A stretch of DNA of 64,000 bases from positions 1 through 64,000 of the forward strand of contig JAEUMT010000018.1 of assembly GCA_016791365.1 (NCBI GenBank), written 5' to 3'. The translations under genes were made by a program, and so were the position numbers. The stretch comes from Hyphomonadaceae bacterium. Its GTDB lineage: Bacteria; Pseudomonadota; Alphaproteobacteria; Caulobacterales; Aquidulcibacteraceae. The notes under the pieces were generated by a model that saw only the letters and a program-made list of their open reading frames with translations, was not told the DNA's origin and searched no databases. Positions 1 through 6,766 of the stretch are shown in pieces. Positions within the stretch are counted from its first letter, which is position 1, and every line of letters starts with the position of its first letter.

Positions 1-20
1 ACTTCCGCTGGTTTTGCAAG

Positions 21-34
21 AAAGGAGGTGATCC
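21..34 (+). promoter_or_regulatory. Maximal Shine-Dalgarno sequence
   Basis: AAAGGAGGTGATCC lies directly before an ATG at 35. It is the exact reverse complement of the conserved 3' tail of 16S rRNA (GGATCACCTCCTTT), so 14 contiguous bases can pair with the ribosome. Ordinary sites in this window match 4-6 bases. The sequence downstream is not 16S helix 45, so this is not an rRNA gene end. Confidence 0.7.
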
Positions 35-103
35 ATGTCTCATTGTCACTCTGTAGGGGCACTGTCGCAGGCTTGGACCACCTCGGGTGGGACCAGCGCT
101 TAA
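35..103 (+). CDS. Putative 22-aa leader peptide
   Basis: A 22-codon frame (begins MSHCHSVGAL, ends TSGGTSA, stop TAA at 101-103) starts immediately after a 14-base perfect Shine-Dalgarno match and is followed by a strong intrinsic terminator. The order RBS, short ORF, terminator is what a leader peptide, attenuator or free-standing small protein would show. I do not recognise the peptide. It has no hydrophobic segment and one Cys flanked by two His. A downstream segment (75-84) can pair with the ribosome-binding site. It could instead be the tail of a transcript that starts before the window. Confidence 0.4.
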   Translation: MSHCHSVGALSQAWTTSGGTSA

Positions 104-6681: not shown

Positions 6682-6766
6682 TGGTGCGCTCGAGAGGACT
6701 CGAACCTCCACGATGTTACTCGCTGCCACCTCAAGGCAGTGCGTCTACCAATTCCGCCACGAGCGC
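6682..6766 (-). tRNA. tRNA-Leu (anticodon GAG)
   Basis: On the minus strand the 85-nt sequence begins GCGCTCG and ends with the matching CGAGCGC plus ACCA, so CCA is encoded. The anticodon stem-loop CTGCC-TTGAGGT-GGCAG gives anticodon GAG, reading CUC/CUU leucine codons. A long variable arm (class II tRNA) and the T-loop TTCGAGTCC are present. No integrase or attachment-site duplication is seen beside it. Confidence 0.96.

Follow-up and report, generated by a model that had tools for sequence, protein, structure and literature searches.

The small RNA family CC2171 (RF01867) is typed in Rfam as an sRNA, and its printed consensus structure includes neither an ORF nor a pairing between a ribosome-binding site and an internal copy. 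The family reportedly stems from Landt et al. 2008. A literature search by name, and partly by passages, found no function for CC2171: two papers that contain this string name it, as far as their accessible text goes, in tables only, with Mesorhizobium huakuii MH_s33 counted among the members, the other papers that contain it have titles on unrelated subjects, and the accessible passages of PMC5988900, PMC11005374 and PMC5082802 hold nothing that could be tied to a CC2171-type RNA. According to the accessible part of Schrader 2014 (PMC4117421), which does not give their names, two Caulobacter RNAs formerly predicted to be non-coding are translated, and CC2171 is a candidate for one of them. 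Three further systems invite comparison with the element described below. Like the element, rnTrpL carries a short ORF on a small transcript, but it is a leaderless trp attenuator, whereas the element has a ribosome-binding site of great length and lacks a conserved gene downstream. The 23-aa protein SEP1 of S. meliloti is described in the available sections of PMC10117765 as conserved in Rhizobiaceae and as having the top translation efficiency of the unannotated sORFs; its length fits the MSSDFVF... form of the element's family f177, which we take for Rhizobiaceae, whereas its reported pI of 4.18 (PMC10117765) compares with 4.37 to 12.0 for the 23-aa f177 forms. Judged by this description, SEP1 may be a relative of the element. 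The rhizobial RNAs SmelA075 and SmelA099 also carry an anti-Shine-Dalgarno sequence; in the accessible text of PMC3927594 this is CCUCCUCCC in hairpin loops, whereas the element holds its copy within the ORF, opposite its own full-length site.

The element lies at the very start of the window, by which we mean the whole 64,000-nucleotide stretch of Hyphomonadaceae contig JAEUMT010000018.1 that was analysed. The original prediction knew of no described alphaproteobacterial family matching it; this was mistaken, since a permissive Rfam scan gives a match to RF01867 over its full length (positions 17-160, + strand; model 1-159), including the ribosome-binding site, the strands of helix P2 and the terminator, with GAAAGGAGGUGAUCCA..UGUCUCAUUGUC and GACAAUGGA in the alignment. 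The score of 72.8 bits (E 3.4e-15) falls just below the gathering score of 75, and a default scan of the window lists a tRNA gene only (6685-6766, - strand), the sole match above gathering score. Among class genomes, RF01867 is found in 61/289 at E<=0.001 and reaches the cut-off in nine of these 289; the Caulobacter vibrioides control also reaches it. What was already known is a catalogued RNA family; new are its spread, a frame kept without peptide selection, P2, the internal copy and the lack of a shared neighbour. Set against the non-coding label of RF01867, the element's frame and stop are conserved, and its peptide gives no sign of selection. Our best explanation, to which we assign a probability of about 0.5, is that the locus encodes, as a gene standing on its own, a structured RNA (~165 nt) belonging to CC2171, which would lock itself and be opened by ribosomes, with the ORF serving as a ribosome track.

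That the block of Shine-Dalgarno site, ORF and hairpin would be conserved in related genomes was found to hold, both in the genus and in the wider class. A 170-base block is matched in 27/30 genomes of the genus, and the exact 14-mer of the site occurs in 26 of the 30, at a single place each, and in 20/20 of the good genomes. The exact site followed by RTGTCTCATTG is present at no fewer than 119 loci (at least 119) in named genomes, where the constancy of the site and of the MSHC start proves nothing because the loci were picked by those letters. Eighty titles among the matches listed comprise four unclassified Proteobacteria, one Ramlibacter bin and otherwise what read as Alphaproteobacteria; Methylobacterium, Bosea, Microvirga, Roseomonas, Brevundimonas and Kaistia are among the matches listed. 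A model built from 64 elements matches 93/385 class genomes at E<=0.001, leaving 292/385 without a match under strict filters that lose weak matches, and in a phylum sample of 200 it finds 34 alphaproteobacterial genomes and two others. The exact site with a start codon occurs in 66/385 class genomes versus 1/385 for a backward-pattern control, and in 30/51 alphaproteobacterial versus 5/149 other genomes of the phylum sample; the five others are G479, G494, G525, G550 and G557. The block is widespread in Alphaproteobacteria, usually in one copy. Two copies are present in Methylobacterium tarhaniae (L055 and L109), two pattern matches each in G577, G651 and G663, and a second, weak RF01867 match in G042, G072, G099, G219 and G302, with two more in G329.

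The feature that sets the locus apart is its ribosome-binding site. The sequence AAAGGAGGTGATCC occupies positions 21-34 and is directly followed by ATG at 35-37, so that 21-37 reads AAAGGAGGTGATCCATG. The 14-base match to the 16S rRNA tail that had been proposed here is real and extends further, as 16 bases (19-34, + strand) are complementary to the 16S tail GGATCACCTCCTTTCT. Because the window's own genome yielded no 16S 3' end, the tail was taken from a genome of the same order (G037), where it reads CTGGATCACCTCCTTTCTAAGG. Allowing up to three mismatches to the complement of the tail, the window contains three matches versus 3.06 expected by chance; the site at 19-34 has no mismatch, and the other two have three each. 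The predicted duplex between the site and the 16S tail amounts to -28.4 kcal/mol, compared with a median of -7.8 and a best value of -16.3 kcal/mol for the 48 long ORFs of the window, with many candidate starts allowed for each ORF. According to the accessible text of Schrader 2014 (PMC4117421), a Shine-Dalgarno site is found for only 24.6% of coding sequences in Caulobacter, which makes a site of -28 kcal/mol the more unusual.

Among 107 rows from model-based searches, some of them repeated places, 81 have the site without mismatch; the search models weight the site, and this view is nevertheless less biased than the pattern-picked loci. Fourteen substitutions were tallied by eye over 13 genera, with two doubtful non-alphaproteobacterial matches excluded. 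They fall on positions 1, 11 and 14, none of them on a G or T, and 11 keep the pairing with 16S as G-U while the remaining three break a pair. For at least 11 of 14 to keep pairing, the binomial probability is 4e-5 when the share of changes expected to do so is set at a quarter, and 7e-4 when it is set at a third; these figures assume an unchanged 16S tail in the lineages concerned and treat as independent genera that are not fully so. By this comparison of sequences, substitutions in the site favour pairing to 16S. Diverged elements mostly retain the site as well: family f177 has MSSDFVFQNVASADCTFGKQSSR and the like, and the MSHGSV... form of the element stands behind AAAGGAGGTGATCC. One element, L017 (G002, 58-200), is a counter-example in which ORF, P2 strands and terminator are present and a different sequence takes the position of the site; it lies 58 bases from a contig end, and being so near the contig start it may be misassembled. 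The same genome also carries L043, another element, itself divergent, that has the site and an ORF of 12 codons.

Downstream of the site, the 22-codon ORF and the tetraloop terminator of the original prediction were both borne out. The ORF, MSHCHSVGALSQAWTTSGGTSA, spans 35-103 (+ strand). An in-frame stop falls at codon 20-26 in 143/149 elements, compared with 4 and 15 for the other two frames. In a larger set, dereplicated from 251 elements to 195, it falls at codon 18-27 in 176 (other frames, 23 and 31). Ninety of these 195 elements contain a GGA[TC]C core at a variable distance of 27 to 55 bases from the start; it lies in one codon phase in 74/90 cases, and GGA[TC]C after the stop is distributed 17/15/10 over the three phases. 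The position of the stop and the phase of this core show that the reading frame is kept.

The RNA also has a putative secondary structure that embraces the ORF. Helix P2 is formed by CATTGTC in ORF codons 3-5 (41-47, + strand) and GACAATG just before the terminator (124-130, + strand), both strands being supported by alignment covariation, RNAalifold and the window fold. In alignment A1, made of 64 of 117 dereplicated elements, P2 has 97.8% of its cells paired with two-sided changes in four of its seven pairs, and the entire structure including the terminator is 95.3% paired versus 32-65% in slid controls. RNAalifold recovers P2 unaided, and the fold of the window RNA also gives it (z -4.67). 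The intrinsic terminator (131-163, + strand), identified by fold and covariation, has a 14-pair stem with one G-T, a GCAA loop and a T run at 160-163, and its stem covaries in A1. Comparison of alphaproteobacterial elements shows conservation of the frame, of P2 and of the terminator. Family f177 has a covarying hairpin around AGCAGYCT near the stop, as seen in 29 elements chosen by length and start, and structural details therefore differ by lineage.

Inside the ORF lies a stretch resembling the 16S tail, TGGACCACCTCG (74-85, + strand), which is predicted to be able to pair with the site; many lineages have such a stretch, and it reads CGGATCACCTCG in L019, TGGATCGTCGCCTCC in Methylobacterium and CGGATCGCCTTCA in L308. 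When the pairing between site and ORF body was compared with shuffles in 119 clusters (each represented by one element with an ORF of 16-30 codons, and not fully independent of one another), the median p was 0.15 with 22.7% at or below 0.05 (KS 3.7e-18), whereas a 3'-UTR control of the same length gave a median p of 0.49 with 6.7% at or below 0.05 (KS 0.76). Single clusters are weak, 77% of them having p>0.05 and the window's own cluster p 0.08. In 30 of the 40 best clusters, 8-24 bases separate the end of the paired stretch from that of the ORF (range 1-38). Pairing between site and copy thus has statistical support at the level of predicted base pairs. Covariation between the two gave no clear result in the seven of 11 named variants covered, the rest having been dropped as duplicates: in three of the seven, and clearly in two, the copy matches the site of its own element more closely than the consensus site. 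The minimum-energy fold of the window RNA, calculated with a program that cannot show pseudoknots, places the internal copy in a local hairpin and not on the site. In L027 (G006) the ORF has 14 codons, and a perfect copy of the 16S tail, GGATCACCTCC, follows the stop instead of lying within the ORF.

A copy of the 16S tail on a small RNA could also act on other transcripts. The locus would then encode a non-coding or dual-function sRNA acting in trans, whose copy or site pairs with other RNAs at their ribosome-binding sites or CCUCC loops, with the ORF being regulatory. The Rfam type and the anti-Shine-Dalgarno loops of SmelA075 and SmelA099, as described in the accessible text of PMC3927594, are consistent with such a role. 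The conserved frame would be unexpected in a purely non-coding RNA, and most changes in the site preserve its pairing with 16S. We regard this reading as unlikely, if still a serious one.

The kept frame might instead point to the peptide. In that case the locus would be a small mRNA with very high output for a functional protein of 20-26 residues (MSHC...W...), much as the earlier suggestion of a highly expressed small protein had it. The frame and stop are as expected for such a gene, most elements of the main type begin with MSHC (the named ones having been picked by a pattern over those codons), and there is the precedent of the two translated Caulobacter RNAs in the portion of Schrader 2014 (PMC4117421) noted above. 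However, after codon 4 the ORF shows no sign of selection on amino acids. In 56 disjoint nearest pairs, not proven independent, from a set of 216/217 ORFs, changes are distributed 170/188/160 over the codon positions, and the ratio of synonymous to non-synonymous changes is 83:173 in frame and 78:167 and 86:171 out of frame, so that synonymous changes make up the same share in frame as in the wrong frames. The neighbouring DUF3008 gene, put through the same test with eight pairs, gave 34/27/155 over the codon positions and 118:20 in frame versus 6:125 and 11:129, and this strongly positive control indicates that the test has power, even if weak selection on the peptide could be hidden by constraints that the RNA places on third codon positions. 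The peptides moreover differ by lineage (MSHC.., MSSDFVF.., MSHGSV..), and the constant first codons double as a strand of P2. A conserved protein product is therefore disfavoured by the missing purifying selection, and we consider this reading improbable, if still a serious rival; in the comparison of sequences, the ORF is better taken as a path for ribosomes.

In order to place the element in its genomic setting, the contig edge has to be taken into account. Positions 1-120 of the window overlap contig C1:1-120 of G000 by 120 bases, exactly at the gene, so that the genome runs on from C1 to the window's contig. The contig start cuts through the gene and leaves the promoter region and the 5' hairpin on C1; the 3' part of this 5'-UTR hairpin (CCAGCG-acttc-CGCTGG) lies at 1-11 of the window (+ strand) and its 5' arm on C1. 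A promoter-like CTTGCG-N17-TATCTT is found on C1, ~41 bases upstream in the window's genome. A -10-like hexamer is present in 25/25 genus rows (21 of them TATCTT) by a pattern written for that hexamer, and the -35 and the 5' hairpin were judged by eye. A simple consensus scan of positions 1-600 lists neither the terminator at 131-163 nor any promoter. From its sequence the element nonetheless appears to be an intergenic gene with its own promoter and terminator.

The next gene downstream, identified from the ORF list and the profile of neighbours, is the convergent DUF3008 gene (183-503, - strand), and upstream lies a divergent gene for LprI, a lysozyme inhibitor (L033, 229-699, + strand). A gene with a phage-lysozyme domain (610-1683, - strand) and the LprI gene flank the element on either side, and downstream ORFs that look lysozyme-like by eye recur in eight elements of one cluster. 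Neighbours were analysed in 143 dereplicated elements with long enough loci. No widely shared neighbour was found among 125 downstream and 117 upstream neighbours, the largest group of like neighbours (by naive ORF calls) being 8/125 and 8/117, respectively. Clade-specific neighbours do occur, namely what we take to be release factor 3, divergent and upstream, in L066 and relatives (8 loci), and presumably RNase R, downstream, in L132 and relatives (7 loci). With a terminator behind a short ORF, the locus has the classic layout of a leader or attenuator of a downstream gene. This reading is very improbable, given that the next gene in the window is convergent and that the next ORF runs in the same direction in 56 of the 125 elements whose flank is long enough (again by naive ORF calls), with no like-neighbour cluster larger than eight; it was rejected because there is no conserved co-directed downstream gene. 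An antisense 16S end, a contig-end error or a chance motif, as might be suspected from a motif that equals the antisense 16S 3' end and sits at a contig start, was rejected as having next to no probability, since no 16S sequence follows the motif, the Rfam scan of the window contains no rRNA match, and the block lies inside the single contigs of three relatives (G020, G023 and G027) and in named genomes of many genera.

In our preferred reading of the locus, a self-locking RNA opened by ribosomes, the free RNA would hold itself closed by pairing the site with the internal copy and the start region with the 3' segment; since P2 and the site/copy pairing cross, the locked form would be a pseudoknot. 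A 30S subunit could win over the internal copy by its longer pairing with the site and thereby open the RNA. The ribosome would then run over the copy and stop shortly after it, keeping the RNA open, such that translation would be the switch and the peptide a by-product. The long docking site, taken together with a peptide sequence that seems unimportant, suggests that the element probably works by engaging ribosomes and not by making protein.

As for what such a device might be used for, the most likely role would be to respond to, or tie up, free 30S subunits. We put a sensor or buffer of free 30S first, since the site matches the 16S tail in full and the peptide can drift freely, the basis of this proposal being complementarity and predicted energy; antisense RNA would be the next choice of output. 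More tentatively, and with a good deal of doubt, we hypothesise that Alphaproteobacteria share this usually single-copy, self-locking RNA, that only free 30S opens it because it has the full complement of the 16S tail together with a copy of the tail, that its ORF is a track for ribosomes whose peptide has no meaning, and that the RNA either reports on or buffers free ribosomes or verifies the integrity of the 16S 3' end. An ORF whose frame is conserved and whose protein is not may be misfiled by a protein survey as a protein and by an RNA survey as non-coding. On sequence evidence, an unexplained RNA family looks built around contact with the ribosome, and it may offer a one-gene, class-wide handle on free-ribosome sensing in, for example, Caulobacter and Methylobacterium.
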